Of a stretch of 64,000 nucleotides of DNA, positions 10,718-29,989 are shown in pieces. Location: assembly GCF_900172355.1 (NCBI RefSeq), contig NZ_FWFZ01000009.1, positions 1 through 64,000 of the forward strand. The letters run 5' to 3'. The notes below the pieces were generated by a model, which was not told the origin of the DNA, searched no databases, and saw only the letters and a list, made by a program, of their open reading frames with translations. Within the stretch, counting starts at the first letter, position 1. The number at the start of each line of letters is the position of its first letter. Source of the DNA: Roseisalinus antarcticus (GTDB taxonomy: Bacteria; Pseudomonadota; Alphaproteobacteria; Rhodobacterales; Rhodobacteraceae). The translations under genes and the position numbers were made by a program.

Positions 10718-10735
10718 TCCCCGGATCATCAAGAC

Positions 10736-10770
10736 CCGGGGCGCGGTTTCTCCCGCCGCGCCCCGGTTTT
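10736..10770 (+). terminator. Attenuating terminator between urtA and urtB
   Basis: A perfect 11-bp GC stem, CCGGGGCGCGG (10736-10746) with CCGCGCCCCGG (10756-10766), a 9-nt loop, and four T residues. The short U-tract and position inside the operon suggest partial termination or stabilisation of the urtA mRNA. Confidence 0.8.
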
Positions 10771-10785
10771 CACCTGAAAGCACCC

Positions 10786-12726: not shown

Positions 12727-12729
12727 CAC

Positions 12730-14082: not shown

Positions 14083-14819
14083 GCACCCTTCTCGAGGTGT
14101 CCGGCGTCTCCGTCACCTTCGACGGCTTCCGCGCCATCAACAATCTCTCGATCCAGATCGGAGAGCCGGAGCTGCGGGCCGTGATCGGGCCGAACGGCGC
14201 GGGCAAGACCACCTTCATGGACATCGTCACCGGCAAGACCCGCCCCGACCAGGGCCGCGTCCTCTGGGGCGAGAAATCGGTCTCCCTTCTCCGGATGTCG
14301 GAAAGCGAGATCGCCCGCGCCGGCATCGGGCGCAAGTTCCAGAAACCCACCGTGTTCGAGGCCCAGACCGTGCGTGAGAACCTGGCCATGGCCCTCAAGA
14401 ACCCGCGCGGGCCCTTCGACGTGCTCTTCTCGCGCGGATTGGACGACGCCGACAGCCGCATCCATGGGCTCGCCGACGAGATCGGACTGCGGGATCACCT
14501 GTCGCGCCCGGCCGGAGAGCTCTCGCACGGGCAGAAGCAGTGGCTCGAGATCGGGATGCTGCTGGCCCAGGATCCGCGCCTGCTGCTGGTCGACGAACCG
14601 GCGGCCGGCATGACCCCGACAGAGCGCCAGCATACGACCGACCTGCTCAAGCGCGCGGCAGAGACCCGCGCGGTCGTGGTGGTCGAGCACGACATGGAAT
14701 TCGTGCGGCGGCTGAACTGCAAGGTGACGGTGCTGCACGAAGGGTCGGTCCTGGCCGAGGGCTCGCTCGATCACGTGACCGGGGACCAACGCGTCATCGA
14801 CGTCTATCTGGGGCGATAA
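14079..14819 (+). CDS. urtD: Urea ABC transporter, ATP-binding protein UrtD
   Basis: A protein of 246 residues. Walker A is GPNGAGKTT (37-45), the signature is LSHGQKQWLEIG (about 149), and Walker B is RLLLVDEPAAGMT (about 167), followed by the switch His in VVVVEHDMEF. It is LivG-like in length and motif set. ATP hydrolysis at the inner face drives urea import. The ATG overlaps the urtC stop (ATGA). Confidence 0.95.
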   Translation: MSTLLEVSGVSVTFDGFRAINNLSIQIGEPELRAVIGPNGAGKTTFMDIVTGKTRPDQGRVLWGEKSVSLLRMSESEIARAGIGRKFQKPTVFEAQTVRENLAMALKNPRGPFDVLFSRGLDDADSRIHGLADEIGLRDHLSRPAGELSHGQKQWLEIGMLLAQDPRLLLVDEPAAGMTPTERQHTTDLLKRAAETRAVVVVEHDMEFVRRLNCKVTVLHEGSVLAEGSLDHVTGDQRVIDVYLGR

Positions 14820-14821
14820 TC

Positions 14822-15517
14822 ATGCTGGAAGTGAAAGACCTCACCCTGCGCTACGGTCAAAGCCAGATCCTCCACAGCATCCGGCTGCAGGCGAAACCGG
14901 GCCAAGTCACGGCGGTGATGGGTACCAATGGCGTGGGCAAGACCTCGCTGCTGAAGGCCATCGCCGGCCGTCACCCCTATCGCAACGGATCGATCAGCCT
15001 GAACGGCAAGGCGCTGCCGCACCTCACCGCCTACGGCGCGGCCCGCGCCGGCATCGCCTACGTGCCCCAGGGGCGCGAGGTCTTTCCGCTGATGACGGTG
15101 ATGGAAAACCTGGAGAGCGGCTATGCCTGCCTGCCGGCCTCGGAGCACGGGGTGCCGGACCGGATCTTCGACCTGTTCCCGGTGCTCAAGGAGATGAAGG
15201 ACCGCCGCGGCGGTGATCTCTCGGGCGGCCAGCAACAACAGCTGGCGATCGCCCGGGCGCTGATCACCAGGCCGCGGGTGCTGCTTCTGGACGAACCGAC
15301 CGAGGGGATCCAGCCCAATATCATCACTCAGATCGGCGAGGTCATCAAACTGCTGCGCGAAGAGGGCGAGATCTGCATCGTGCTGGTGGAGCAGTATTTC
15401 GACTTTGCCGTGGGGCTGGCGGACACGTTCTTCGTCCTGACACGGGGCGAGGTGAGCCACAGGGCGGAAAAAGCGACGCTCGACCGCGACCGCCTCCTCA
15501 ACGCCGTTTCAATCTAG
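14822..15517 (+). CDS. urtE: Urea ABC transporter, ATP-binding protein UrtE
   Basis: A protein of 231 residues. Walker A is GTNGVGKTS (34-42), the Q-loop is in YVPQGREVFPLMTV, the signature is LSGGQQQQLAIARAL (about 135), and Walker B is VLLLDEPTEGIQPN. It is the LivF-type partner of UrtD. The start is 2 bp after the urtD stop. It ends the urt operon, followed by a run of hairpins. Confidence 0.95.
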   Translation: MLEVKDLTLRYGQSQILHSIRLQAKPGQVTAVMGTNGVGKTSLLKAIAGRHPYRNGSISLNGKALPHLTAYGAARAGIAYVPQGREVFPLMTVMENLESGYACLPASEHGVPDRIFDLFPVLKEMKDRRGGDLSGGQQQQLAIARALITRPRVLLLDEPTEGIQPNIITQIGEVIKLLREEGEICIVLVEQYFDFAVGLADTFFVLTRGEVSHRAEKATLDRDRLLNAVSI

Positions 15518-15521
15518 CGGT

Positions 15522-15708
15522 GCGGCCCCAAGCGGGGCCGCGCCGGTCATGTCAGGCCGCGCAACTGCGCGGCCTTCCGGTTGGCGCCCGGCGCAACCGT
15601 CCCGCCTCACCTGAAACCTGGCGCACGGTCGCTGCGGGACGGCGGGCGGGGCGACGGGGGCGGCCCCGCAGGGGGCGCACGCGAGCGCCGTGCGGCGTCC
15701 CGCCCGCC
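15522..15708. repeat. Cluster of inverted repeats after urtE
   Basis: Three hairpins follow each other: GCGGCCCC/GGGGCCGC (15522-15541, loop 4), GGCCGCGC/GCGCGGCC (15555-15574, loop 4), and GGTTGGCGCC/GGCGCAACC with one bulge (about 15579-15598). A fourth pair, GGCGGGCGGG (15641-15650) and CCCGCCCGCC (15699-15708), encloses 48 bp. None has a clear U-tract. The first probably helps end the urt transcript; the rest are unexplained. No gene is visible in 15518-15770. Confidence 0.7.
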
Positions 15709-15770
15709 CTCTGGCATACCGGGGCGCATGGCGGCATAAGGGCTGCGTCGTACCGGCCATGAAGGATCCC

Positions 15771-16601
15771 ATGACACATCCCTATTACTCCGGCCTCGGC
15801 GGGCATCCCGGTCAGGACAGGCTGCTGACCGACCGCGCCACCTTCACCGAAAGCTACGCCTTCATTCCCCGAGGCGCGATGCGCGACATCGTCGCCAGCG
15901 CCCTGCCCTTCTGGGAGCAGACCCGCGCCTTCGTCCTCGCGCGGCCGCTGTCGGGATTCGCCGAGACCTTTTCGCAATACATCATGGAGGTCGGGCCCGG
16001 CGGCGGTTCCGACCGCCCGGACGACGACTCGGAGGCGGAAGCGATCCTCTTCGTGGTCGAAGGCGGAGGCGTGCTCACCATCGACGGCGCCCTGCATCGG
16101 CTCTCCCCCGGCTCCTACGTCTACCTGCCGCCGGAGACCCGCTGGAGCCTGCGCAACGACCGGGACGCTCCCCTCAAGTTCCACTGGTTTCGCAAGGCCT
16201 ACCAGGCGGTGGACGGCATCGACCGCCCCGAGGTCCTCGTCACCAGCGACGCCGCGGTGAGCCCCAGCGCCATGCCCGGATGCGAGGGCGTCTGGGAGAC
16301 CAGCCGCTTCGTCGATCCCACGGACATGCGCCACGACATGCATGTCAACATCGTCACCTTCTACCCGGGCGGCATGATCCCGTTCTGCGAGACCCACGTG
16401 ATGGAACACGGGCTTTTCGTGCTTCAGGGCAAGGGCGTCTATTGCCTGAACAAGGATTGGGTCGAGGTCGAGGCCGGCGATTTCATGTGGCTGCGCGCCT
16501 TCTGCCCCCAGGCCTGCTACGCTGGCGGTGCGGAGCCGTTCCGCTACCTCCTCTACAAGGATGTGAACAGGCACATGCCGCTGCGGATCAACGCGCGGTA
16601 G
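15771..16601 (+). CDS. (S)-ureidoglycine aminohydrolase, bicupin
   Basis: A protein of 276 residues built of two cupin domains. The N-terminal one (about 60-135) contains AEAILFVVEGGGVLTIDG and GSYVYLPPETRW. The C-terminal one (about 175-265) has VNIVTFYPGGMIPFCETHVMEHGLFVL, with the Glu/His/His/Gln-type manganese ligands of the family, and AGDFMWLRAFCPQ. The family hydrolyses ureidoglycine to ureidoglycolate and ammonia, after allantoate. The start at 15771 has AAGGA four bases upstream; an in-frame ATG lies 12 bp earlier. The next gene, allA on the opposite strand, takes the product further. Confidence 0.88.
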   Translation: MTHPYYSGLGGHPGQDRLLTDRATFTESYAFIPRGAMRDIVASALPFWEQTRAFVLARPLSGFAETFSQYIMEVGPGGGSDRPDDDSEAEAILFVVEGGGVLTIDGALHRLSPGSYVYLPPETRWSLRNDRDAPLKFHWFRKAYQAVDGIDRPEVLVTSDAAVSPSAMPGCEGVWETSRFVDPTDMRHDMHVNIVTFYPGGMIPFCETHVMEHGLFVLQGKGVYCLNKDWVEVEAGDFMWLRAFCPQACYAGGAEPFRYLLYKDVNRHMPLRINAR

Positions 16602-16607
16602 GCCGGC

Positions 16608-17093
16608 CTAGCCGACCGTCCAGGGCCTGGCGAACCAGTGTTCCTGCAGGTTGTCACCGGGCCCGATCCGGTCGACCACCGCGAAGAGCCCCGGCGCGGC
16701 CAGCGGCGTCAGCACCCCGTGCCAGGTGCCCCGGTGCAGGTTGATCCCCTGCCCCGGCGCCGTACGGAAGGCCAGCGGGCGCCCAGGCACCCCGCCCATG
16801 TCGGGCGCCACGACGACCAGGAACGGATCGAGGCTCATGGGCAGAAAGGCCTGGCTGCCCTCGGGATGCCGCTCGACCATCTCCAGGCGCAGGGGCAGCC
16901 GCCGGGGCTCGGCCCGGAACAGGCTGATCCCGGCCCGCCCCTGCCCGCCGAAATCGAGCGTGGCCCGGTCGTGATACCGCCCGCAGAGCCCCTGGTTGAT
17001 CAGCTTGTCCGGCGCCCCGTCCGTGTCCAGCACGTCGCCGAAGGGGGCGAAGGCCGCGGCCCCCAGCGCCTCGATCCCGATATGGTCGCCCAT
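16608..17093 (-). CDS. allA: Ureidoglycolate lyase
   Basis: A protein of 161 residues, the AllA length. Recognisable parts are FAPFGDVLDTDGAP, the GQGRAGISLFRAEPRRLPL region, MVERHPEGSQAFLPM, FLVVVAPD, and HRGTWHGVLTPL, which holds the conserved active-site area. It splits ureidoglycolate to glyoxylate and urea. It converges with the aminohydrolase gene (6-bp gap). The urea formed matches the adjacent urea import and presumed urease elsewhere; no urease gene is in the window. Confidence 0.92.
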   Translation of the reverse strand: MGDHIGIEALGAAAFAPFGDVLDTDGAPDKLINQGLCGRYHDRATLDFGGQGRAGISLFRAEPRRLPLRLEMVERHPEGSQAFLPMSLDPFLVVVAPDMGGVPGRPLAFRTAPGQGINLHRGTWHGVLTPLAAPGLFAVVDRIGPGDNLQEHWFARPWTVG

Positions 17094-17265
17094 CTGCCGT
17101 CCCCCGCCTGCCGAGCCCTGCCCAATTCATGGACATCCGCGACGCCCGTCCGGGCCGCGCATTGAATCCCTGATGCCATCGGGTTGAGATTGCCTCACAC
17201 TTCACGGCAAAAGCAAAGCGATACGGACGGCCCCCGGACCGCCCGATCGGAACAAGGGGACAGAC

Positions 17266-18501
17266 ATGTACGATTTTGCCGCGCTGTGGGACTGGGTCGG
17301 CTTCGCGGTCCGATGGGTCCACGTGATCACGGCCATCGCCTGGATCGGCTCGTCCTTCTACTTCGTCGCCCTCGACCTCGGCCTGAACCGCAAGATCAAG
17401 GGGCCGGCGGACGGCGAGGAATGGCAGGTCCACGGCGGCGGCTTCTACCATATCCAGAAATACCTGGTCGCCCCCGCCGCCATGCCCGAGCACCTGACCT
17501 GGTTCAAATGGGAGGCCTATTCCACCTGGCTTTCGGGCGCGGCGCTGCTGATGGTGGTCTACTGGGTGGGCGGAGAGCTCTACCTGATCGACCCGCAGAA
17601 GGCCGACCTCGCGCTCTGGCAGGGGATCGTCCTTTCGGCCGCCTCGCTCGCGGTCGGCTGGGTGATCTACGACTACCTTTGCAAATCGCCGCTGGGCGAG
17701 CGGCCGACGACGCTCATGCTGCTGCTCTTCGGGATGCTGGTGGCGATGTCCTGGGGCTATCACCAGGTCTTCACCGGCCGCGCGGCCATGCTGCACCTCG
17801 GGGCCTTCACCGCCACGATCATGACCGCCAACGTGTTTGCCATCATCATGCCGAACCAGCGGATCGTGGTCGCCGACCTCAAGGCCGGCCGCACGCCGGA
17901 TCCGAAATACGGCAAGATCGCCAAGCTCCGCTCCACCCACAACAATTACCTGACCCTGCCGGTCGTGTTCCTGATGCTGTCGAACCATTATCCGCTGGCC
18001 TTCGCGACCGAGTATTCCTGGGCGATCGCCGCGCTGGTGTTCCTGATGGGGGTCACGATCCGGCATTTCTTCAACACGATGCACGCCAGACAGGGCATGC
18101 CGCACTGGACCTGGCTGGTGACCGCGCTGCTGTTCCTGGCCATCGTCTGGCTCTCGACCGCGCCGATGCGGTGGGACAGCTATGAGGAGGCCCAGGCCCG
18201 CGAGCTGACCCCGTATGAGCAGCGCTTTGCCGAGGCCGAGGGCTTCGACGAGGCCCATGACATCGTCGTCGGCCGCTGTTCCATGTGCCATGCCCGAGAG
18301 CCGGTCTGGGGCAACCTGCGCTGGCCGCCCAAAGGCGTCCTGCTGGAGACGCCCGGTGACATCGCTCGCAATGCCCGCGCGATCTATGTCCAGGCAGGGT
18401 TGAGCCACGCGATGCCACCTGCGAACATCACCAATATCGAGGACGACCACCGCCGCGCCCTCGTCCGCTGGTACCGGGCCGCCGCGCATACCACGCCCTG
18501 A
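17266..18501 (+). CDS. puuD: Membrane-bound urate oxidase with cytochrome c domain
   Basis: A protein of 411 residues. The N-terminal part has about eight membrane segments and the PuuD pattern (RWVHVITAIAWIGSSFYFV at 17-35, with GGGFYHIQKYLVAP). A C-terminal periplasmic cytochrome c domain has the haem motif CSMCH at about residue 338. It oxidises urate to 5-hydroxyisourate and passes electrons to a cytochrome oxidase rather than making hydrogen peroxide. It fits between purine breakdown and the ureide genes on both sides. HIU hydrolase and OHCU decarboxylase are not in the window. Confidence 0.93.
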   Translation: MYDFAALWDWVGFAVRWVHVITAIAWIGSSFYFVALDLGLNRKIKGPADGEEWQVHGGGFYHIQKYLVAPAAMPEHLTWFKWEAYSTWLSGAALLMVVYWVGGELYLIDPQKADLALWQGIVLSAASLAVGWVIYDYLCKSPLGERPTTLMLLLFGMLVAMSWGYHQVFTGRAAMLHLGAFTATIMTANVFAIIMPNQRIVVADLKAGRTPDPKYGKIAKLRSTHNNYLTLPVVFLMLSNHYPLAFATEYSWAIAALVFLMGVTIRHFFNTMHARQGMPHWTWLVTALLFLAIVWLSTAPMRWDSYEEAQARELTPYEQRFAEAEGFDEAHDIVVGRCSMCHAREPVWGNLRWPPKGVLLETPGDIARNARAIYVQAGLSHAMPPANITNIEDDHRRALVRWYRAAAHTTP

Positions 18502-18582
18502 GCGCCGCCACGCGGGCCAGGCGGCACAGGACGAACGACGCGCCGCACGCCCCGCAAGAGGCCACATCAGGAGACGAGGACC

Positions 18583-19506
18583 ATGTCCGCAGACGACCTT
18601 TTCGACGCACATGACCCCCGGTTCCACGCGCTCGTCAACGCCAACGCCCGGCTCCGGACCCTGCACACGGGCAGCGAATGGGTCGAGGGGCCCGCGTATT
18701 TCGCCGGCGGGCGCTACCTGATCTGGTCGGACATTCCCAACGACCGGATGCTGCGCCTCGACGAGGCCGACGACAGCGTCAGCCTCTTCCGCCAGCCCTC
18801 GGGCAATTCCAACGGCAACACGGTCGACCGGCAGGGCCGCCTGATCAGCTGCGAGCATGGCCGCCGCCGCGTCAGCCGGACAGAGCATGACGGCTCGATC
18901 ACCGTCATCGCCGACGCCTACCAGGGCAAGCGGCTGAACTCGCCCAATGACGTGGTGGTGAAATCCGACGGCACGATCTGGTTCACCGACCCGGCCTACG
19001 GGATCGAGAGCGATTACGAGGGCAACAAGGCCGCGGGCGAGATCGGCGGCTGGTATGTCTTTCGCGTGGTGCCCGAGACCGGAGAGATCAGCGCCGTCAT
19101 CACCGGGATGGTGCGGCCCAACGGGCTGGCCTTCTCGTTCGATGAAACGCGGCTCTATGTCAGCGATTCGGGCAAGCCGCACCATGCGCCCTTCGAGAAA
19201 CAGGCCGACATGATGGTCGCCGATGTCGCGCCGGACGGCAGCCTAGGCAACCTGCGCCCGTTCACCAATATCCATCATGGCGGTTTCGACGGCTTTCGGC
19301 TCGACACCGAGGGGCGGATCTGGGCCGCCGCCGGGGCGAACGTGGAATGCTACGCCCCCGACGCGACGCTGCTGGGCCGGATCAAGCTGCCCGAGACGGT
19401 GTCGAACCTGTGCTTTGGCGGGCCCAAGCGCAATATCCTCTACGTGACCGCCACGACCTCGCTCTACCGGATCCGGCTGATGGTGAACGGGGCGAAGACC
19501 TACTGA
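18583..19506 (+). CDS. SMP-30/gluconolactonase-family lactonase
   Basis: A protein of 307 residues with a six-bladed beta-propeller pattern. The family's metal-site residues appear in order: Glu in WVEGPAYF (about 30), Asn in LNSPNDVVVKSDGTIWFTDP (about 125), Asn in RPNGLAFS (about 180), and Asp in VSDSG (about 195). It probably opens a sugar-acid or related lactone. The substrate is unknown. The gene lies 80 bp after puuD, possibly in the same transcript, but a link to purine breakdown is not established. Confidence 0.85.
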   Translation: MSADDLFDAHDPRFHALVNANARLRTLHTGSEWVEGPAYFAGGRYLIWSDIPNDRMLRLDEADDSVSLFRQPSGNSNGNTVDRQGRLISCEHGRRRVSRTEHDGSITVIADAYQGKRLNSPNDVVVKSDGTIWFTDPAYGIESDYEGNKAAGEIGGWYVFRVVPETGEISAVITGMVRPNGLAFSFDETRLYVSDSGKPHHAPFEKQADMMVADVAPDGSLGNLRPFTNIHHGGFDGFRLDTEGRIWAAAGANVECYAPDATLLGRIKLPETVSNLCFGGPKRNILYVTATTSLYRIRLMVNGAKTY

Positions 19507-19550
19507 CGCCCGGCCCGGCGCACTTCGGCTTCGCGTTGGCGCGGCCGGCC

Positions 19551-19626
19551 GGATCGTGCCAGGATCGTGCCAGAATCGTGACAGGATCGCCCCGGGGACT
19601 TGCGGGGGACCTGCGGGGGACCGCGC
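19551..19626 (+). repeat. Two runs of 11-bp tandem repeats before the CocE-type gene
   Basis: GGATCGTGCCA occurs at 19551-19561 and 19562-19572, with the variants GAATCGTGACA (19573-19583) and GGATCGCCCCG (19584-19594). A second set follows: GGGGACTTGCG (19594-19604), GGGGACCTGCG (19605-19615), GGGGACCGCGC (19616-19626). The 11-bp period holds across about 76 bp and ends 34 bp before the ATG at 19660. The period is close to one helical turn, so all copies would face one side of the DNA. Confidence 0.9.
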
Positions 19627-19659
19627 CGGGGATCCGGCGCGAACAGGGGGGCGCACGCG

Positions 19660-21360
19660 ATGACCGGGACTTTCACCATCCGCGACCATGTGCCCGTGCC
19701 CATGCGGGACGGCATCGATCTTCATGCCGATGTCTGGCTGCCCGAGGGCGCGGGGCCCTTTCCCGTGCTGCTTCAGCGCACGCCCTACATCAAGGAAGAG
19801 CCCTTCGGCACGCAGCATATCTCGGCGATGGATTTCCGCGGCACCCTGCGGCGCGGCTATGCCATCGTGGTGCAGGATTGCCGGGGGCGCTGGTCGTCCG
19901 ACGGGCAGTTCGACCCGTTCTGCAACGAGACCGCCGATGGGCACGACACCATCGCCTGGCTGTGCGCCCAGCCGTTCTGCGACGGGCGCATCGCCATGTT
20001 CGGCGCCTCCTACGTCGGGGCGACGCAGGTGCTGGCCAGCCTCGGCGCCCCCGAGGGGCTGGCCGCGATCGCGCCGAACCTGACCACGGCGCGCCATGAC
20101 GAGACCTGGACCTCGCGCGGCGGGGCGGTCGAGCTGGGCTTTCTCTACCTCTGGATCATCGAGGCGCTGGCCGGCATCGACCTGCAGAAACGCGCGGGCG
20201 ACATGACCCCCGGGGCGCTGGCCCGGGCGCGGGCGCTGCTGGCGGACCTCAGCGCCGACCCCGACGCCGCGTTCCGGCGCCTGCCGTTGATCGACGAAGG
20301 GCTCGTCGGGCTCGCGCCCTACGTCGCCGACTGGTTCGAGACAGCCACCGCCGAGACCACGCGCCTGACCGAGCTCGCCGAGACACCTGTCCCCGCGCTG
20401 GTCATCGGCGGCTGGAACGACATCTTCGTCGAGGGCTCCATCGAGTTGTTCGAGACGCTGCGCGGGCGCTGGCCGACCCGGGCCGAAGTGCCCGACCGGC
20501 TGATCCTGGGGCCATGGTCGCATGGCAACCCGAGCGACTTCCAGGGTGATCTCTGGCACGGCTACGGCAGCACGACCGCGCCGCTTCTGGCCGAGCATCT
20601 GGCGTTCTTCGAGGCGGCCTTCGCGGGCGCCTGCCCCGACACGCCCATGGTGCGCTATTTCCGCAGCGGGTCGAACACCTGGCACGCGGCACCTGACTGG
20701 CCGCTGCCGGGCACAGCGCCGAGAGAGATGTTTCTCGACGGGGCCGGCGGCCTCTCCGCCGCGCCCGGCCCCGACGCCGCGCTGCGCTACACCGCCGATC
20801 CGTCCGACCCGGTGCCGACCACCGGCGGCGCGACCTTCCTGCCCGGCCTCGTGATGGGCAAGAACTCCGGCCCGCGGGACCAGGCAGAGGTGGAGCGTCG
20901 CGGCGATGTCCTCGTCCTGACCTCGGCCCCGCTAGAGGCCGCGATGGAGGTGACCGGCAGGGTCGAGGCCGTGCTCTGGGTCGCCACCACGGCGCCCTGC
21001 TGTGACTGGACGGTCCGGCTGTGCGAGGTCGACGCCACGGGGGCAAGCCGGGGCCTGGTGGACGGCATCCTGCGCTGGGATGCGCCCGACGGGGCCGCCC
21101 CGGCCGTGGTGCGGGTGACGCTGGGCCATATCGGGCACCTCTTCGCGCAGGGCAGCCGGGTCCGGGTGCAGGTCGCCTCGTCCAACTTCCCGCGCTTCGA
21201 CCGCAACCCGCAATCGGGCGCCGCGCCGGCGACGGCCACCGAGGCGGATTTCCGGCCCGCCGCTCAGACGGTCCTTGTCGGCGCCGCGCATCCCAGCCGG
21301 ATCGTCCTGCCGGTGATCCCCGAGGCCTTTCCGGGGGGGCCGGAGTTCACGGCCCTCTAG
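19660..21360 (+). CDS. CocE/NonD-family X-Pro-peptidase-like hydrolase
   Basis: A protein of 566 residues. The alpha/beta-hydrolase core comprises MRDGIDLHADVWLPEG, YAIVVQDCRGRWSSDG, and the nucleophile elbow FGASYVGATQ (Ser near residue 118), with DPFCNETADGHDTI between. The acid region is VIGGWNDIFVEG and the His is in GPWSHG. A C-terminal jelly-roll domain (from about 365, with MEVTGRVEAVLWV) completes the family fold. It hydrolyses esters or amides; the substrate is unknown. Its stop and that of the convergent next gene share CTAG. Confidence 0.88.
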   Translation: MTGTFTIRDHVPVPMRDGIDLHADVWLPEGAGPFPVLLQRTPYIKEEPFGTQHISAMDFRGTLRRGYAIVVQDCRGRWSSDGQFDPFCNETADGHDTIAWLCAQPFCDGRIAMFGASYVGATQVLASLGAPEGLAAIAPNLTTARHDETWTSRGGAVELGFLYLWIIEALAGIDLQKRAGDMTPGALARARALLADLSADPDAAFRRLPLIDEGLVGLAPYVADWFETATAETTRLTELAETPVPALVIGGWNDIFVEGSIELFETLRGRWPTRAEVPDRLILGPWSHGNPSDFQGDLWHGYGSTTAPLLAEHLAFFEAAFAGACPDTPMVRYFRSGSNTWHAAPDWPLPGTAPREMFLDGAGGLSAAPGPDAALRYTADPSDPVPTTGGATFLPGLVMGKNSGPRDQAEVERRGDVLVLTSAPLEAAMEVTGRVEAVLWVATTAPCCDWTVRLCEVDATGASRGLVDGILRWDAPDGAAPAVVRVTLGHIGHLFAQGSRVRVQVASSNFPRFDRNPQSGAAPATATEADFRPAAQTVLVGAAHPSRIVLPVIPEAFPGGPEFTAL

Positions 21361-22262
21361 CCGGCCTCGCGTCGTCCGTTCCCCGGCGCCCCGCTGGTGG
21401 CGGCGAAAGCCTCGGCGATCGCGCCGGCGGTCGTGATCCAGACCCGGTCGCGCCGGGCCTCGATTTGGGCCAGCGCATGGCGCAGGTGGCGCAGGCGGAA
21501 CGGCTGGCCGACGATATAGGGATGCAGCGCGATGCCCATCACGAGGCTCTGGCTTTCGGACTGCTCCAGCATCTCGTCGAACGTGTCGCCGATCATGTCG
21601 GCAAAGGCCGCGGGGCCGTCCTTGCGGGCGACGATCGCGGGGATGTCGTTGACCTCCTGCGGATAGGGCACCGCCAGAAGCGGGCCCGAGCGGGTGCGCA
21701 GCCAGACCGGCTGATCGTCCATGCACCAGTTCAGGGTATAGCCGTAGCCCGCCTCCCTCAGCAGGTCCGGGGTGACCGCGCTCTCGGCGATCCAGGGGCT
21801 GAGCCAGCCGGCCGGCCGCCGCCCCGTCTCGCGGGTCAGCACGTCGGTGGCCTCGGCGATCAGGGCGGCCTCGTCAGCCTCGGACAGGGTGGATTGCCGC
21901 TCTGAATTGGTGCGGCCGTGGCCGGCGATCTCGTCCCCGCGCCGGGCATGCGCGGCCATCAGCTCGGGCGCGTGGTCGTACATGGCGGAATTGGCCAGCA
22001 CCGTCGCCGGCAGCTTCAGCCGGTCCAGCAGCTCGATCAGCCGCCAGGCGCCGACCCGGTTGCCGTAGTCGCGCCAGGCGTAGTTCAGCACGTCGGGTTG
22101 CGGCCCGCCGGGGGCCAGCTCCGCGCCCAGCCCCGCGCCGAAGGCGAAATGTTCCAGGTTGATGCCGAGATAGACCGCCAGCCGCTTGCCGCCGGGCCAC
22201 AGGAAATCCGGGCGGGCGTTGATCGGCGCGTAGTCAAAGCGGCCGTGACCGGGCAGGCTCAT
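21357..22262 (-). CDS. Polysaccharide-deacetylase-family protein, PuuE/amidase-like
   Basis: A protein of 301 residues of the NodB-homology type related to metal-independent allantoinase PuuE and peptidoglycan-type deacetylases: RLAVYLGINLEHF, WRDYGNRVGAWRLIELLDRL, PATVLANS, and EIAGHGRTNSERQ. The C-terminal half has GYTLNWCMDDQPVW and MGIALHPYIVGQPFRL. The start at 22262 sits in the end of the upstream SnoaL gene (4-bp overlap). The purine context makes an amide-ring hydrolase conceivable. It is not typical enough of PuuE to call it that. Confidence 0.78.
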   Translation of the reverse strand: MSLPGHGRFDYAPINARPDFLWPGGKRLAVYLGINLEHFAFGAGLGAELAPGGPQPDVLNYAWRDYGNRVGAWRLIELLDRLKLPATVLANSAMYDHAPELMAAHARRGDEIAGHGRTNSERQSTLSEADEAALIAEATDVLTRETGRRPAGWLSPWIAESAVTPDLLREAGYGYTLNWCMDDQPVWLRTRSGPLLAVPYPQEVNDIPAIVARKDGPAAFADMIGDTFDEMLEQSESQSLVMGIALHPYIVGQPFRLRHLRHALAQIEARRDRVWITTAGAIAEAFAATSGAPGNGRREAG

Positions 22263-22675
22263 AGCGGCGCCTCGGATAGCCCCGCCCGGTCCAGCAGGAT
22301 CTCCGCGCTGTCGTTCCAGACCTGGGTGCTGACGATGACCCCGCCGCGCACGACGAAGATGTCGATGTAGCGGTTGGTCTCGAACGGCGTCCCGTCGGGC
22401 CATTCGCCGTAGAGAAACCCGGTATTGTAGACATGGACATCGCCGGTCTCGGGGTCCTCGGCGGCATCGGTGCGCCCGAACCGCTTTTTGACCCATTTGT
22501 AGCGCCGGGCGTTGAACGCGGCGGTCTGGGCCGGGGTCGAGAACGCCCGCCCGCCGGTGAAGACGATGCTGAAATCCTCCGAGACATAGGCAGAGGCCCC
22601 CTCGGGGTCAGGCACCATGCAGAGCTCCAGGTAGGTCTCGACGATCCGTCGCGCCTCGGTCATTGCCTGCGTCAT
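22259..22675 (-). CDS. SnoaL/NTF2-like protein
   Basis: A protein of 138 residues with the NTF2-like cone fold pattern: helix MTEARRIVETYLELCMVPD, DFSIVFTGGRAF, ending with strands TNRYIDIFVVRGGVIVSTQVWNDSAEILL. Such proteins act as isomerases, hydratases or small-ligand binders. It forms a two-gene unit with the deacetylase-like gene (ATGA overlap), which suggests that the two act on one substrate. That substrate is unknown. Confidence 0.75.
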   Translation of the reverse strand: MTQAMTEARRIVETYLELCMVPDPEGASAYVSEDFSIVFTGGRAFSTPAQTAAFNARRYKWVKKRFGRTDAAEDPETGDVHVYNTGFLYGEWPDGTPFETNRYIDIFVVRGGVIVSTQVWNDSAEILLDRAGLSEAPL

Positions 22676-22898
22676 GCCATCCTCGCCTGTTGCCCCGCGC
22701 AGGGCCTGACGGCCCCCCTCTGCGGATCACCTTAGCCCCCCGCACCGCCCTTTCCAGATCAAAGCGCGGGGGGCAGCCGCCCGGACTGCGCCGTCCCGGG
22801 CCAGCGGGCGACGAAGTCGCGGTCCGCGCACAGATGTCGTGCGTTGACCTGTCCGCGGGCATGCTAAACTCCTCTCCAACGCAAACGGGGGAGCCAGC

Positions 22899-23675
22899 AT
22901 GCAAATCGGAAAGGCCGGCAAGGCCACCACGTCCATCTCGACCGCGACGCCGGACAGCATCACCGTCCGGGGTCATGACCTCGTGTCCGACCTCATGGGG
23001 CACCTGAGTTTCGGCGAATACTTCTTTCTGCTCACCACGGGCCGCAAGCCGACCGAGGATCAACGCTTCTTCCTCGACGTGCTGCTGGTCTCGATCGCCG
23101 AACACGGGCTGGTCCCGACCAATCAGGCGGCGCGGATGACCTATGCGGCCGATCCCGATTTCCTGCAGGGCGCGGTCGCGGCCGGGCTGCTGGGCTGCGG
23201 CAAGGTGATCCTGGGGACGACCGAGACCGCCGGCGCCTTCCTGCAGGACGCCAAGGCGCGGATCGACGCGGGCGAGACCATGGACGACATCATCGCCGCG
23301 CTGCGCGACAGCGGCGGGCGCATTCCCGGCTTCGGCCACCCGCTGCACAAGCCGGTCGACCCCCGCGCCCAGCGCATCCTGTCGCTGGCCGAGGAGCGCG
23401 GCCTTTCGGGGCCTTACGTCCCGCTTGCCCGGGCGACCGAAGAGGCGGTCGGGCGGCTGTGGTCGCGGCCGCTGCCCATGAACGTGTCCTTCGCGATCCC
23501 TGCGGTGCTGCTCGACCTCGAGTTTCCGCCCGCGGTGTTGAAGGCGGTGCCGATCCTGGCGCGCACGGCGAGCCTGCTGGCGCACCTGGCCGAGGAATCG
23601 GGCAACCCCATCGGCTTCACCCTCGCCCATCATGCGGAACAGGGCATCACCTTCGATCCGGAGGGCGGCCAATGA
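22899..23675 (+). CDS. Citryl-CoA-lyase-like, citrate-synthase-family protein
   Basis: A protein of 258 residues, much shorter than citrate synthase (about 430), matching stand-alone citryl-CoA lyases. The small-domain active-site region is kept: FGEYFFLLTTGRKPT, AEHGLVPTNQAARM (first catalytic His), GGRIPGFGHPLHKPVDPRA (second catalytic His), and ESGNPIGFTLAHHAEQ. The expected reaction is cleavage of an acyl-CoA such as citryl-CoA to acetyl-CoA and an oxoacid. GGGGGAGCC precedes the ATG. It overlaps the following CoA-ligase gene (ATGA), so the ligase probably makes its substrate. Confidence 0.82.
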   Translation: MQIGKAGKATTSISTATPDSITVRGHDLVSDLMGHLSFGEYFFLLTTGRKPTEDQRFFLDVLLVSIAEHGLVPTNQAARMTYAADPDFLQGAVAAGLLGCGKVILGTTETAGAFLQDAKARIDAGETMDDIIAALRDSGGRIPGFGHPLHKPVDPRAQRILSLAEERGLSGPYVPLARATEEAVGRLWSRPLPMNVSFAIPAVLLDLEFPPAVLKAVPILARTASLLAHLAEESGNPIGFTLAHHAEQGITFDPEGGQ

Positions 23676-24988
23676 TGCATGCCCCCGCGATCGAGACCGC
23701 CCCCTGGGACCGGCAGATTGGCGATGACGACGCGGCCTACCGTGCGCAGGTCCGCTATCTTCTGGAGCATTCCGCCTTCTACCGCGACAAGCTGGCCGAG
23801 GCGGGCTTTGCCTCCGCCGAGGCGGTGGGCGGGCTGGCCGACATCGCCCGGCTGCCCTTCACCGAGAAGGACGAGCTGCGCGCCACCCGCGACGCGGACC
23901 ACCCCATCGGCACGCACCTGGCCGCGCCGATGAAGGACATCGTGCGGATCTATTCCACCAGCGGCACCACCGGCACGCCCAGCTACATCCCGCTGACCGC
24001 CGAGGACCTGGCCAACTGGGTCGAGATCTCGCAACGCTCCTACGCCGCCAGCGGGATCGCGCCCGGAGAGCGGATGGTCACCACCTACAATGCCGGACCC
24101 TTCGTGGCGGGCGTCACGCTCGATGCCTTCGCGGCCCTCGGGGTCTGTCACATCCCCGTCGGCGCGGGCAACACCGAACGGCTGATGGCCGCCGTCTCGC
24201 TGCTGCAACCGAGCGTGCTGGGCTGCACCCCGTCCTACGCGCTGCATCTGGCGGAATGGGCGGCGCAGCGGGGGATCGACACCGCCGCCTCCAGCGTCCG
24301 GCGCATCCTGGTGGCCGGAGAGCCCGGCGGTGGAGAGCCCGCCCTGCGCGCCCGGCTCGAGGAGGCCTGGGGCGCCAAGGTGACCGAAGCGATGGGGATC
24401 GGCGACATCTCGGTCTCGCTCTGGGGCGAGTGCGACCACCAGACCGGGATGCACTTTTCCGGCCGCGGCATCGTCCATGCCGAGGTGATCGACCCCGAGA
24501 CCGGCGCCGCCCTGCCGTTCGAGGACGGGGTCGAGGGAGAGCTGGTCTATACCCACCTTCGGCAGCGGGCCGCGCCGCTGCTGCGGTTCCGCTCGCGCGA
24601 CCGGGTGCGGATCGGCACGACGGCCTGCGCCTGTGGCCGCACCTCGCCCCATGTGCGCTGCATCGGGCGGACCGACGACATGCTGATCGTGCGCGGGGTG
24701 AACCTTTTCCCGACCGCGGTGCGCGAGGTCGTGGGCGAGTTCGGTGACCATGTCAGCGGGGTGATCTCGATCCGGCCACAGACCAGGGGCGTCAAACAGG
24801 CGCCGCCCCTGCCCGTGACCGTGGAGCTGGCCGAGGGCACGACCCCGCCCGCCGACCTCGCCGAGCGGATTGCCCGGCGCATCCGCGACAAGCTGGTCGC
24901 GACCACCGCCGTCACGCTGGTCGGGCACGGGACGCTGCCCCGCTCCGACTACAAATCCAGACTCATCGACTGGTCCGACGCCGTCTGA
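23672..24988 (+). CDS. Phenylacetate-CoA-ligase-like AMP-binding enzyme
   Basis: A protein of 438 residues of the PaaK type. It has YLLEHSAFYRDKL, the ATP motif STSGTTGTPSYIPLT (about 90), EAMGIGDISVSLWGE (about 247), a cysteine group with CACGRTSPHVRCIGRTDDML, and the C-terminal domain with RGVNLFPTAVREV. It forms an acyl-AMP and then an acyl-CoA from an organic acid. It is translationally coupled to the citryl-CoA-lyase-like gene and followed by a VOC gene 31 bp later. The acid activated is unknown and need not be aromatic. Confidence 0.87.
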   Translation: MMHAPAIETAPWDRQIGDDDAAYRAQVRYLLEHSAFYRDKLAEAGFASAEAVGGLADIARLPFTEKDELRATRDADHPIGTHLAAPMKDIVRIYSTSGTTGTPSYIPLTAEDLANWVEISQRSYAASGIAPGERMVTTYNAGPFVAGVTLDAFAALGVCHIPVGAGNTERLMAAVSLLQPSVLGCTPSYALHLAEWAAQRGIDTAASSVRRILVAGEPGGGEPALRARLEEAWGAKVTEAMGIGDISVSLWGECDHQTGMHFSGRGIVHAEVIDPETGAALPFEDGVEGELVYTHLRQRAAPLLRFRSRDRVRIGTTACACGRTSPHVRCIGRTDDMLIVRGVNLFPTAVREVVGEFGDHVSGVISIRPQTRGVKQAPPLPVTVELAEGTTPPADLAERIARRIRDKLVATTAVTLVGHGTLPRSDYKSRLIDWSDAV

Positions 24989-25019
24989 CCGCACCGTCCC
25001 ATCCCGAAAGGAACCTCCC

Positions 25020-25619
25020 ATGAACCCGCCAAACCAGATCCGGAAGATCCAATCCCAGGGCGTGCACCACATCACGCTGATGGGGGCCGACCGCCAGACC
25101 TCCATCGACTTCTGGGAAGGTCTTCTGGGCATGCCGTTCATCTTCGACCAGCCCAACCTCGACAACCCGAACGAGGGGCATCTCTACTTCGATCCGGGCG
25201 ACGGGCGGCTGATCACGATCTTCACCAACGAGGACCGCAAACCCGACGCCCGCCGCACCTCGACCGAGACCGGCGCGGTGCACCATATCGCATTCAGCGT
25301 GAGCCAGGCGTCGTTCTGGCAGGTGGCAAAGCGGCTCGATGCGCGCGGGATCAAGCATTCCGGCGCAAAGGACCGCGGCTTCATGGATTCGATCTATTTC
25401 GAGGATCCGCTGGGTCTGCTGATCGAGATCGCGAGCTACCGGTTCGAGCCCCCCGAGGGCACGCGCCATGCCGACGTGATGATCGAGGCGCACAAGATCC
25501 GCGTCGCGCGGGGCGATCACCATATCGACCGCGAACACCTGGCCGATGCGATCGAACTTCTGATCGAACGGCGCCACGCCTCGCTGTCTTCGGACCGCGG
25601 ACCGCGCAATCCCTACTGA
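25020..25619 (+). CDS. VOC-superfamily (glyoxalase/extradiol dioxygenase) protein
   Basis: A protein of 199 residues. Two beta-alpha-beta-beta-beta modules are visible: GVHHITLMGADRQTSIDFWEGLLGMPF (15-41) and GAVHHIAFSVSQASFWQV (about 82), with SIYFEDPLGLLIEI near 125. The His in HHITL, the His in HHIAF and the Glu in LIEI are the usual metal ligands. The last 60 residues are an extension rich in charged residues. AAAGGAACC precedes the ATG. Lyase, isomerase and ring-cleaving roles are all possible. It is probably the third gene of the CoA operon. Confidence 0.82.
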   Translation: MNPPNQIRKIQSQGVHHITLMGADRQTSIDFWEGLLGMPFIFDQPNLDNPNEGHLYFDPGDGRLITIFTNEDRKPDARRTSTETGAVHHIAFSVSQASFWQVAKRLDARGIKHSGAKDRGFMDSIYFEDPLGLLIEIASYRFEPPEGTRHADVMIEAHKIRVARGDHHIDREHLADAIELLIERRHASLSSDRGPRNPY

Positions 25620-26683: not shown

Positions 26684-29600
26684 ATGCCAGACAAGACCGG
26701 ACCCGGATCGGCTGCGACGCAGGAGGGCGACCCCGCGGATCTTCGGATCGTCGGCATCGCCGCATCGGCCGGCGGACTCGAGGCGGTGTCGCTGCTCGCG
26801 CAGAACCTGCCCGCAAAGGCGAACGCGAGCTATATCGTCGCGCAACACATGTCGCCCACGAACAAGAGCCTGCTGAGCTCGCTGATCGCCCGGGAAACCG
26901 CGCTGCCGGTGATCGAGCTCGGCGAGGACGTCGCCCCCGAGCCTGACACGATCTATGTCTCGCCGCCGAACTGGGACGTGATCTACCAGGACGGCCGGAT
27001 CTGCCGGCGCACGCCGTCCAGCCGCCCGGCGAGCCCGAAGCCCTCGGCCGACCGCCTGTTCAAGTCCCTCGCGGCGAGCTGCGGCGAACGCTCCGTGGCC
27101 ATCGTCCTGTCCGGCACCGGCAGCGACGGCAGCTACGGCACCCAGGATGTCCGCGAGGCGGGCGGCATCACCATCGCCCAGGACGTTGCCTCGGCGAAAT
27201 ACGACGGGATGCCGGCCTCGGCCATAGACACCGGCTGCGTCGACCTCACGCTGACGCCCGAGCAGATCGGCGAGCACCTCAAGAAGATCCTGTCCCCCTC
27301 GCGCGATTTCGAGCCGCTGCGCCATCTCGACGAAGAACCCGGGCGTGTCTCGACGCTTCTCAAGATGCTGCTGGCGCGGACGCGGGTCGATTTCCGGGAC
27401 TACAAGGAAAACACCGTCAACCGCCGGATCACCCGGCGCATGACGGCGCTGGGGATCGAGGATGTCGACGCCTATGTCGACCATTGCCGGACCTCGGAAC
27501 AGGAGCTCGACGCGTTGCACCGCGACCTGCTGATCTCGGTCACCCGGTTCTTCCGCGACCGGGACCAGTTTGATCAGCTCCGGCGCGAAATCGAAAAGCT
27601 GGTCGCGCAATCGCGGCACCGCCAGATCCGGGTCTGGGTCGCCGGCTGCGCCACCGGGGAAGAGGCCTATTCCGTCGCGATCCTGTTCGCCGAGGCCATG
27701 GGTGGACGCCGCGAACTGACCAAGGACCGGCTGCAGATCTTCGCCACAGACATCGACGAACGCGCCCTCGGGATCGCGCGGCGCGCCAGCTATCCGGCGA
27801 GCGCCGCCGACGACATCCCGCCCGACTACCTGTCGAGATATTTCGTCGAGTCCGGCGGCAAGCTCATGGTCGCGGCCGAGCTGCGGGCGGTCACGCTGTT
27901 CTCCAGGCACAACATCTTCCACGACCCGCCGTTCATCTGCGTAAGCCTTGTCTCCCTGCGCAACGTGCTGATCTATTTCAACGCGGCGCTGCAGGAGCGG
28001 GTGCTGAACCGGGTGCTCACTGCCCTCTCGCCCGGGGGGCTGCTGTTTCTGGGCACCGCCGAAAGCATCGGCCACATGGATGTCCGCCTTGAAAGCCCGT
28101 CGCCGACCGACAAGATCTTCACCAAGCGGGCCGGCTTCCGCGAGGGCGCCCTCGCCATGTCCTCCCCGCAGTCGAGCCGGCTTGCAAGCCAACGCCAGAA
28201 GCCCGACGACAGCGCCGCACGGGCCGAGGACCTGCACGGCAAGCAGTTCGACGCCCTCGCCAAGGCCGTGGCCGAGAACGGGTTCCTGGCGACGCGGTCC
28301 GGCGACATCGTCCGGGTCTTCGGCGACATCTCGCCCTACATCGAAGTGTCGGAGAACAGCCTGCTGTCGCTCAGCATCCGGCTGCTGAAGGCACCGTTTC
28401 GCGACGACGTCACCGGCATGATCGCCGTGGTCCTGCTCAACCGCAAGCGGCGGCGGGGCCGGGTGCACGACTTCGCCGTCGGCAGCGACAACCGGGTGCA
28501 GATCGAATGCATCCCGCTGGCAGGCGCCACGCAGGGCGAGGACCACGTCCTGGTCTCGTTCCAGACCCGGCACGAGGCCGCGACCACCGCCGAGATCTAC
28601 ACCCTGACTGACGCAGGGCGGCAGGACTACATCGCCCGGCTCGAATCCGAGAACGAGATCACCCGCGAGGCGCTGCAACAGACCGTCGAAGAGCTGCGGA
28701 CTGCCAACGAGGAACTGCAATCGGTCAACGAAGAGATGCAATCGACCAACGAAGAGCTGCAATCCACCAACGAAGAGCTCGAAACCTCCAACGAAGAGCT
28801 CCAGTCGACAAACGAGGAGCTGGTCACCGTCAACGAGGAGATGCAGATCAATGCGGCCCAGCTCCAGGTGGTCTCGACCGAAGCGATGGCCATCCTCGCG
28901 GCCTCGCCCTTTCTGCTGCTGGTCGTGGACGAGACGCTCACGATCCGCAAGGCGTCGGATCTGGCGCTCGACTTCTTCAAGCTCGGAGACCTGCCGCATT
29001 CGGGGGTGCACCTGTCGCGCTGCAAGCTGCCGACGGGCTTTCCGGAGCTGACCCGCGCGGCCAACGACGTCTTCAGGCAGGGGCGCAACACGACGTTTTC
29101 GGTGGAATCGGACGGTCGGTTCTTCTCGGTCAGCATCGCCCCCTATTCCGGGCCGGACAGCACGGTCGTGGGGCTGACGATCGCGGCCCATGAATTCGAT
29201 TCCGATCCCTTCCGGATGATGACCGAGATGATGGATTCCATGGCCGGCATCTCGCGCTGGAGCTACAACGTCTACAGCGGAGAGGTGTTCTGGTCGCCGG
29301 AGATCTACCGGATGCACGGGCTCTCCCCGGATCAGCCGCCGCCCTCGCTGGAGGAGGCGTTCACCTACTTTCACCCCGATGAACAGCAGATGATCCGCGA
29401 GAAATTCGACGCGAGCCTGCGGGCCGACGTGCCCTTCGGGTTCGAGGCCCGCATCGTCCGCGCCGACGGCGGGATCACCTTCGTGCAATCGGCAGGCGCC
29501 GTCGCCCGGGACCGCAACGGAGAGCCCACCTACATCGTCGGCGCGATCCGCGACTGGACCCGCGAGCTGGCCGAGCGCATGCTGGTGCGCAACTTCTCCG

Positions 29601-29989
29601 AGGTGCAGGACGATTTCGGCATCGGCTTCTACTCCATGGATATCGCCAATTCCCAAAACTACTGGAGCCGGGGGCTCTATCTGATCCTCGGGCTGGACCC
29701 CGAGCGCGACACGCCCAGCATCGACAGGGCGTTGGCGCGGATATGTCGTGAGGATCGGGACTTGGTCGCGGGCCTTGTGCAGGGCTTGATCGACACCGGG
29801 GCGCCGTTCGGGTTTTTCGCCCGCATCGTCAGCAAGGCCGGCGACCGGATCTGGTGCGAGGGCAAGGGCCGCGCCCGGATCGCCGAGAATGGCGAGGTCA
29901 GCCATATCTACGGCAGCTTCTGCCGGCTGTCCCCGGACAGGGTCGCGGCCGAAACGCTGACCGAGGCCCGCAAGATCCCCACGCCCTGA
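26684..29989 (+). CDS. CheB-CheR-PAS hybrid signalling protein
   Basis: A protein of 1101 residues. The order is: CheB methylesterase (1 to about 200; triad S28 in AASAGG, H55 in AQHMS, D148 in GTGSDG; no receiver domain), CheR methyltransferase (about 215-480; NRRITRRM, RFFRD, AGCATGEEAYS near 317), a PAS-like segment (about 520-640), a coiled coil of seven-residue TNEELQS repeats (about 669-722), then three PAS-type modules (about 730-830, 850-960, 980-1095). There is no histidine kinase domain at the end, unlike many relatives. It may sense a signal through PAS and adjust receptor methylation both ways, or serve a non-chemotactic two-component system. Confidence 0.93.
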   Translation: MPDKTGPGSAATQEGDPADLRIVGIAASAGGLEAVSLLAQNLPAKANASYIVAQHMSPTNKSLLSSLIARETALPVIELGEDVAPEPDTIYVSPPNWDVIYQDGRICRRTPSSRPASPKPSADRLFKSLAASCGERSVAIVLSGTGSDGSYGTQDVREAGGITIAQDVASAKYDGMPASAIDTGCVDLTLTPEQIGEHLKKILSPSRDFEPLRHLDEEPGRVSTLLKMLLARTRVDFRDYKENTVNRRITRRMTALGIEDVDAYVDHCRTSEQELDALHRDLLISVTRFFRDRDQFDQLRREIEKLVAQSRHRQIRVWVAGCATGEEAYSVAILFAEAMGGRRELTKDRLQIFATDIDERALGIARRASYPASAADDIPPDYLSRYFVESGGKLMVAAELRAVTLFSRHNIFHDPPFICVSLVSLRNVLIYFNAALQERVLNRVLTALSPGGLLFLGTAESIGHMDVRLESPSPTDKIFTKRAGFREGALAMSSPQSSRLASQRQKPDDSAARAEDLHGKQFDALAKAVAENGFLATRSGDIVRVFGDISPYIEVSENSLLSLSIRLLKAPFRDDVTGMIAVVLLNRKRRRGRVHDFAVGSDNRVQIECIPLAGATQGEDHVLVSFQTRHEAATTAEIYTLTDAGRQDYIARLESENEITREALQQTVEELRTANEELQSVNEEMQSTNEELQSTNEELETSNEELQSTNEELVTVNEEMQINAAQLQVVSTEAMAILAASPFLLLVVDETLTIRKASDLALDFFKLGDLPHSGVHLSRCKLPTGFPELTRAANDVFRQGRNTTFSVESDGRFFSVSIAPYSGPDSTVVGLTIAAHEFDSDPFRMMTEMMDSMAGISRWSYNVYSGEVFWSPEIYRMHGLSPDQPPPSLEEAFTYFHPDEQQMIREKFDASLRADVPFGFEARIVRADGGITFVQSAGAVARDRNGEPTYIVGAIRDWTRELAERMLVRNFSEVQDDFGIGFYSMDIANSQNYWSRGLYLILGLDPERDTPSIDRALARICREDRDLVAGLVQGLIDTGAPFGFFARIVSKAGDRIWCEGKGRARIAENGEVSHIYGSFCRLSPDRVAAETLTEARKIPTP
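28690..28850 (+). repeat. 21-bp tandem coding repeats (NEELQST heptads)
   Basis: About seven copies of a 21-bp unit encode NEELQS-type heptads (TANEELQ, SVNEEMQ, STNEELQ, STNEELE, TSNEELQ, STNEELV, TVNEEMQ). They form a parallel coiled coil between the PAS-like segment and the following PAS modules. Near-identical units may gain or lose copies by slippage in steps that keep the frame and the heptad phase. Confidence 0.85.

Follow-up and report, generated by a model that had tools for sequence, protein, structure and literature searches.

A citryl-CoA-lyase-fold protein without the catalytic aspartate, encoded with a PaaK-like ligase and a VOC protein in Roseisalinus antarcticus: a possible operon for ring-fission acids

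The first 64,000 nucleotides (nt) of contig NZ_FWFZ01000009.1 of Roseisalinus antarcticus (assembly GCF_900172355.1), in the following called the window, harbor three adjacent genes on the forward strand, which encode a protein with the fold of citryl-coenzyme A (CoA) lyase, an acyl-CoA ligase and a metalloprotein of the vicinal oxygen chelate (VOC) superfamily. An original prediction from the nucleotide sequence had described a short protein of the citrate synthase family with both histidine regions, overlapping a PaaK-type ligase and followed by a VOC protein; this description, including all three open reading frames (ORFs) and their coordinates, is borne out. The lyase gene (P0001, 22899..23675, +) codes for 258 amino acids (aa), and a ribosome-binding-site-like GGGGGAG (22887..22893, +) can be read directly 5 nt 5′ of its ATG. 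The gene of the PaaK-like AMP-forming ligase (P0002, 23672..24988, +; 438 aa) starts at 23672 within the sequence ATGA and overlaps the lyase stop by 4 nt. The VOC gene (P0003, 25020..25619, +; 199 aa) begins with an ATG 31 nt after the ligase gene, and a mechanically assigned TTG start at 24870 was not adopted. A scan of the locus revealed no sigma-70-like promoter and no terminator better than chance, and the RNA fold of the leader has a z-score of -1.8.

The lyase scores 309.7 bits against the model NF004868 “citryl-CoA lyase” (cut-off 193) and 93.2 bits (2.1e-26) against PF00285, and its AlphaFold2 model has a mean predicted local distance difference test score of 91. The best structural match of this model in the PDB is the stand-alone citryl-CoA lyase 6HXP of Hydrogenobacter thermophilus (Foldseek 4.2e-14, Z 25.5, root-mean-square deviation 2.4 over 244 residues), ahead of ATP-citrate lyase modules (Z 21.6-23.1) and citrate synthases (Z 18.2 or less). 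Thus, both the PF00285 score and the model identify the citrate synthase C-terminal fold of about 260 aa. With 6HXP and the CCL module of ATP-citrate lyase the protein shares the fold, the two histidine motifs, the DPR motif and the R....L.AH motif. Both catalytic histidines are present: His69 (codon 23103..23105, +) is part of an EHG motif that aligns with DHG of 6HXP, and His147 (codon 23337..23339, +) was located in a GFGHP motif by the alignment of relatives. In contrast, the catalytic aspartate of the NVD motif is missing, and the alignment with 6HXP places Ser197 at its position (codon TCC, 23487..23489, +); in addition, GHR at the second histidine is changed to GHP. The loss of this residue had been named beforehand as evidence against a citryl-CoA lyase. 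Since Ser197 stands in place of the catalytic aspartate, the protein lacks the defining feature of such an enzyme, the strict identity is rejected, and calling it a “citryl-CoA lyase” is unsafe; it is a putative CoA-dependent C-C lyase. Counted by the offset from the alignment end, Ser197 would correspond to residue 541 of the Methanosaeta ATP-citrate lyase. In the structure 6ZNW, this residue is changed to alanine and, according to its title, the structure holds citryl-CoA.

Of 104 aligned rows (102 loci, the window protein and 6HXP), 93 lack the aspartate, the window protein being one of them. At this position, serine occurs in 54 rows, threonine in 22, aspartate in 11, asparagine in nine, alanine in six, and glutamine and valine in one each. 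Besides 6HXP, the aspartate rows comprise ten proteins (L090-L099; L denotes the loci compared) from genomes of the Alphaproteobacteria, the class of the window. They constitute another group of short proteins with the citrate synthase fold, most of which read DHGPQAPS ... GHRFHKP ... NIDGA. The motif at the second histidine differs accordingly: 89 of the 93 non-Asp rows read GHP, and 10 of the 11 Asp rows read GHR. His147 is invariant in the 43 rows of a first alignment (A1) and present in 102 of the 104 rows of the larger set, and of the 102 rows with a residue at the position of His69, 99 have histidine, the exceptions (L057, L058 and L089) reading DQQF. A single branch splits the two sets in a tree that comprises 91 non-Asp and 12 Asp rows, the latter including one added citrate synthase (103 rows in total; support 99/87; 100% of 200 bootstrap trees). 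A single origin of the non-Asp group is therefore well supported, but not proven, because the tool warned of long branches and the root was drawn at the midpoint. L054 and L055 were excluded from the tree with lengths below 200 aa, and L056, which has serine at the Asp position in one alignment, was left out of the 104-row set as short.

Gene neighborhoods were compared at 76 loci, consisting of 59 loci found by peptide patterns, 16 plasmid regions (L062-L069 and L100-L107, with L066 lacking annotation) and the window. Neighbors were counted by tblastn at an E-value of 1e-8 within 4 kb of the lyase gene and, for comparison, in the outer flank at 4-8 kb; 16 of the 76 loci are truncated on one side within 2.5 kb, and L059, a short doubtful match, is kept among them without entering the residue count. 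The peptide patterns were taken from the query, one of them spanning Ser197, so that the set of 59 leans towards the query. A profile search of the window's class was free of such patterns and yielded Asp and non-Asp forms alike: 234 of 289 genomes match at an E-value of 0.001, many of the matches listed for them having reading frames of citrate synthase length, and 29 of the best loci besides the window's own comprise 19 non-Asp and 10 Asp forms.

The ligase matches PF00501 (49.9 bits) and PF14535 (31.5 bits) above the respective cut-offs. Like the phenylacetate-CoA ligase PaaK, it combines the AMP-binding and AMP-binding_C_2 domains, and PaaK structures (4R1L, 2Y27) are its closest solved relatives, together with the 2-hydroxyisobutyryl-CoA synthetase 6HDW. 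Unlike PaaK, it stays far below the cut-off of the phenylacetate-CoA ligase equivalog TIGR02155 (218.1 versus 646.3 bits) and belongs to the wider AMP-binding family only. Of the 76 loci, 41 have a homologue of this ligase at most 4 kb from the lyase, versus two with one in the outer flank (with partial matches in L005 and L024), and the pair occurs in several alphaproteobacterial families as well as in Actinomycetota (L023-L025, L033), so that it is conserved beyond close relatives. The lyases in these pairs are of the S-, N-, A- and T-type in 34, 3, 2 and 2 loci, respectively. The known citryl-CoA synthetase is another kind of partner than a PaaK-like ligase, and the pairing is as unusual as had been proposed: the partner of the window lyase is PaaK-like and no citryl-CoA synthetase, although a genome-wide search for the latter was not made.

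Other CoA-activating enzymes take the place of the PaaK-like ligase elsewhere. CaiB-type CoA-transferases were counted in 17 loci within 4 kb versus one at 4-8 kb, and altogether 66 of the 76 loci have an activating enzyme within 2.5 kb of the lyase (41 PaaK-like ligases, 17 CaiB and eight other AMP ligases, the latter counted only where no PaaK is near). No locus combines PaaK with CaiB, or CaiB with another AMP ligase, and among the ten loci without any such enzyme, the annotation of L103, L104 and L107 shows a ligase at a greater distance. As the activating enzymes are exchanged while the lyase stays constant, the pattern argues that the substrate of the lyase is the CoA thioester which they make.

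The VOC protein matches PF00903 with 53.5 bits, and Glyoxalase_4 remains below its cut-off. Its closest relative by sequence in the PDB is MhqO (3OAJ); the match to the PcpA-type structure 4HUZ is weak (4.4e-6), with the HHIT and RG.....Y motifs aligned, whose residues we take to be the catalytic ones of PcpA. Like MhqO and PcpA, the protein aligns HHIT, HH.AF, RG.....Y and the Glu motif. Unlike these proteins, which have 320-335 aa and two domains, its 199 aa contain one matching domain that matches each half of MhqO and PcpA separately, so the expected two-domain length of about 320 aa is not reached. The 2-His-1-Glu set of His17, His89 and Glu136 is invariant in 24 of 24 rows, and in all 28 rows with letters there in a set of 29; by family these residues probably bind the metal. 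VOC homologues of the window type were counted within 4 kb in 25 of the 76 loci (match partial in L015) versus one at 4-8 kb.

A further pattern concerns the dioxygenase-type neighbors, of which one is present within 4 kb in 38 of the 76 loci: a VOC protein in 29, a LigB class III extradiol dioxygenase in five and an intradiol dioxygenase in four, never coinciding. LigB was not found in the outer flank of any locus. The clusters of Aminobacter MSH1, Sinorhizobium B11 and Martelella combine lyase, CaiB and LigB, that of B. glumae an intradiol dioxygenase, lyase, FAD hydroxylase, CaiB and LeuCD, and that of C. necator N-1 lyase, AMP ligase and intradiol dioxygenase. In Rhodococcus BX2, an HpaB-like hydroxylase, CatC, an intradiol dioxygenase, a cycloisomerase, PcaD and an AMP ligase accompany the lyase. 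A glutathione transferase (GST) similar to maiA is found within 4 kb in nine of the 76 loci versus one at 4-8 kb, all nine also with a VOC gene. Since ring-cleavage dioxygenase families replace one another beside the lyase, the VOC protein may have the same function and is, judged by its sequence, a candidate ring-cleavage dioxygenase. In two of three haloarchaeal regions (L116 and L117, not L115), distant VOC relatives are accompanied by genes for dienelactone hydrolase, DoxX and either a second VOC protein or a “ring-cleaving dioxygenase”.

Beside LigB, a protein of 121 aa was noticed (L063, 11873-12238), which has a homologue in all five LigB loci (L063, L034, L068, L100, L101); the L063 protein has no Pfam or NCBIfam match at an E-value of 0.001. 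It is perhaps a small partner subunit of LigB.

The explanation which we consider best, and which we hold tentatively at somewhat less than an even chance, is a small catabolic operon in which the ligase would make the CoA thioester of a ring-fission acid, the Asp-less lyase would cleave it and the VOC protein would act upstream as dioxygenase. The gene content, its conservation, the replacement pattern, the fold, the lost aspartate and the intact metal ligands are observed; the CoA thioester as lyase substrate, which is very probable, the origin of the acid from ring fission and the order of steps are the inferred parts. In detail, the VOC protein would cleave the ring of a para-diol of the hydroquinone or gentisate type in an O2-dependent reaction, and in some relatives the maiA-like GST would then isomerise the resulting acid. 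The ligase would convert the carboxylic acid to its CoA thioester, and the lyase would cleave a C-C bond of the latter, either by retro-aldol reaction of a 3-hydroxyacyl-CoA or by hydrolytic retro-Claisen reaction of a 3-oxoacyl-CoA. The products would be acetyl-CoA and a smaller acid or carbonyl compound. Of the route proposed originally, namely activation and subsequent cleavage of a hydroxy-polycarboxylic acid, the sequence of CoA activation and C-C cleavage is thus retained as the best reading, while the neighborhoods point to ring-fission acids as substrates. Likewise, the VOC protein had been left to act before or after the cleavage; it belongs to the cluster and probably acts before, as a ring-cleavage dioxygenase.

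In such a scheme, ligase and lyase would take the place of the fumarylacetoacetate-type hydrolase of homogentisate and gentisate degradation, or of CoA-transferase and thiolase in the beta-ketoadipate pathway. The homogentisate and gentisate pathways consist of a dioxygenase, a maleyl-type isomerase of the GST family and fumarylacetoacetate hydrolase. Several loci resemble them in holding a dioxygenase candidate together with a maiA-like GST; they differ by a VOC protein instead of the usual dioxygenase and by CoA ligase and lyase at the step of the hydrolase, and the window cluster differs further in having no adjacent GST. Searched with one reference, a fumarylacetoacetate hydrolase homologue was detected in only two of the 76 loci (L030 and L064) and not in the piece of the window searched. 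The beta-ketoadipate pathway uses PcaIJ and PcaF. The Rhodococcus BX2 cluster is similar to it in having intradiol dioxygenase, cycloisomerase, CatC and PcaD, followed by candidates for CoA activation and C-C cleavage. It differs by AMP ligase and Asp-less lyase after PcaD, with no PcaIJ or thiolase annotated in 40 kb of a plasmid whose gene table is incomplete.

Several observations weigh against this explanation. The missing aspartate is itself one of them: human ATP-citrate lyase D1026 is called essential in PMC10115795, with a debated role as general base or in allostery, and the same paper states that D1026A abolished acetyl-CoA formation, which the wild type performed. By family, D1026 would occupy the position of Ser197. 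Moreover, three rows (L057, L058, L089), two of them of the non-Asp kind, have lost His69. No VOC gene lies within 4 kb in 17 of the 41 PaaK loci. Five of these can be accounted for, as the VOC gene is 4.6 kb off in L016, a distant VOC-like ORF (27%) is present in L039, and L017, L031 and L053 end within 1.2 kb downstream; twelve are left without such an excuse. In L023, a distant GST-type ORF (25%) follows the ligase and no VOC gene was found. Conversely, two Ensifer plasmids have VOC and GST genes, with lyase and ligase absent within 8 kb. The intradiol dioxygenase is hardly enriched, with four loci within 4 kb versus three at 4-8 kb, and the mutual exclusion of the families does not reflect as many independent events, because the loci are related by descent and their numbers exceed that of such events. 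Next to the genes of the window cluster there is neither a transporter nor a hydroxylase nor a close GST; five GSTs of the genome match the cluster GST with 26-36%, none closely, and no LigB was found in the genome by a search whose control was detected in 4 of 14 genomes. Furthermore, other lyase branches are found in beta-oxidation-like clusters with no ring-cleavage dioxygenase in the annotation.

In Ensifer adhaerens (L121, 8001-11516), a VOC and a GST gene, without lyase and ligase, are located beside the gene of an SBP56 selenium-binding protein.

A wider claim, possible at best and rather doubtful, is that the whole non-Asp clade represents a general CoA-dependent C-C lyase for ring-fission acids, using an Asp-free mechanism in the citrate synthase fold and interchangeably combined with three kinds of CoA-activating enzymes and three unrelated ring-cleavage dioxygenases. 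It would then be a third means of completing aromatic catabolism, in addition to hydrolases and thiolase.

The rival that survives best, though we regard it as unlikely, places the enzyme in a modified beta-oxidation as a general lyase that would cleave 3-hydroxyacyl-CoA by retro-aldol reaction or 3-oxoacyl-CoA hydrolytically and stand in for thiolase with substrates that are not thiolysable; the dioxygenases would then be one supply module among others, and the VOC protein would not need to be a dioxygenase. An acyl-CoA dehydrogenase homologue is present within 4 kb of the lyase in nine of the 76 loci, and with one thiolase reference no thiolase homologue was seen in seven of the nine, L057 and L058 being those which have one. 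That such loci mostly lack thiolase suggests a broader chemistry with the ring-fission role as one use, which adds to the points against the operon for ring-fission acids. L104 and L105 combine acyl-CoA dehydrogenase and enoyl-CoA hydratase (L105 also pieces of an aldehyde dehydrogenase), and L103 and L107 harbor a short-chain dehydrogenase/reductase, MaoC, HMG-CoA lyase and a 41% PaaK-like ligase about 6 kb from the lyase. However, eight of the nine acyl-CoA dehydrogenase loci have T- or A-type lyases and one (L012) the S-type, and none of these beta-oxidation enzymes adjoins the window cluster.

Less probable still is a different role of the VOC protein, as acyl-CoA epimerase or as glyoxalase-type enzyme using glutathione on the substrate or product of the lyase. 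The VOC superfamily includes enzymes of both kinds, low-scoring matches to the FosA and YaeR models were obtained, a GST neighbors the VOC gene in the nine loci mentioned above, and on the Ensifer plasmid pCasidaAA a methylmalonyl-CoA mutase is encoded about 3.4 kb upstream of the VOC gene. Against this stand MhqO as closest solved relative by sequence, the Glyoxalase_4 score and the finding of no epimerase family in Pfam or NCBIfam at an E-value of 0.001, a search in which distant VOC relatives can be missed.

The least probable alternative, a lyase of citryl-CoA or of a close homologue such as citramalyl- or malyl-CoA in which another residue or a bound water replaces the aspartate, agrees with the retained fold and histidines, the NF004868 score far over its cut-off, LeuCD in two clusters (among them that of B. 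glumae) that could yield a citramalate- or malate-type acid, and the CaiB proteins of L036 and L067, which match best, below the cut-offs, succinate-glutarate and mesaconate CoA-transferases and formyl-CoA transferase, respectively; it is highly doubtful in view of the aspartate loss in 93 of 104 rows as one tree group and of a window cluster without LeuCD, transporter or citryl-CoA synthetase.

Should the operon for ring-fission acids be real, it would be an accessory catabolic module distributed across marine and soil Alphaproteobacteria, Burkholderiales and Actinomycetota. It would also be a natural test of the role of the aspartate in the citrate synthase fold, which is debated for ATP-citrate lyase (PMC10115795). 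Public annotation calls many such proteins citryl-CoA lyase and thereby places them in citrate or reverse tricarboxylic acid cycle metabolism, against which their sequence argues. Among the literature matches listed, no title or abstract opening treats the Asp-less branch; subscription journals are mostly outside this search, which is no proof of absence.

The lyase gene is accessory. Among four congeneric genomes, none has a close copy, two being without match and two having a weak match of the citrate synthase kind, and a housekeeping role is rejected on this basis. In 32 other genomes of the window's family, two (G297, G310) have a copy with 47-49%, and five more show matches of 32-37%. A relative with 83% identity to the window lyase is found in Tropicimonas sediminicola (L001), and a plasmid of Sinorhizobium fredii NGR234 encodes lyase, ligase and VOC protein. 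Among 72,556 plasmid records, 145 match by tblastn at an E-value of 1e-5, citrate synthases included at the weak end, and a haloarchaeal plasmid (L120) encodes a 39% relative, with genes for an AMP ligase and acyl-CoA dehydrogenases next to it. The Rhodobacterales genome HKCCSP123 has two cluster copies (L005, 8895-9272; L013), one with a short ligase match of 126 residues between lyase and VOC gene.

Further neighbors of the lyase, given as loci within 4 kb versus at 4-8 kb, are GntR (18 versus 2) and IclR regulators (12 versus 2), the TRAP large permease (11 versus 6) and a MetE-like protein with the fold of B12-independent methionine synthase (Meth_synt_2; 8 versus 5). The latter is encoded within 4 kb in L008, L025, L033, L039, L050, L055, L056 and L063, directly upstream in L025 and L063, and further off in L036 and L040. 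It perhaps performs a thiol or methyl transfer step; a search of the window genome without positive control found none.

Upstream of the lyase, a SnoaL-like and a PuuE-like deacetylase gene are oriented divergently. They were rejected as part of the unit, as none of the 59 relative loci has a homologue at an E-value of 1e-5. A CocE/NonD hydrolase (19600-21360) was considered as substrate supplier and left out, because the homologue in L063 is located about 2 kb upstream of the lyase, and those in L011 and L067 are 5 to 8 kb away from it. These genes belong to a purine-like region (10645-22675) comprising ABC permeases, a cupin, a protein with urate oxidase N-terminal domain, SMP-30, the CocE/NonD-type (S15) hydrolase, the PuuE-like deacetylase and the SnoaL-like protein; in L009, a urate oxidase homologue is also found about 5 kb upstream of the lyase. 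At 602-718 on the reverse strand, an ALIL pseudoknot scores 101.9 bits (gathering score 50), a family which we take to be the frameshift signal of IS3-type insertion sequences, one of which is probably located near the window start. Downstream of the cluster, a CheB-CheR-PAS fusion protein of 1101 aa is encoded (26684-29989, +).

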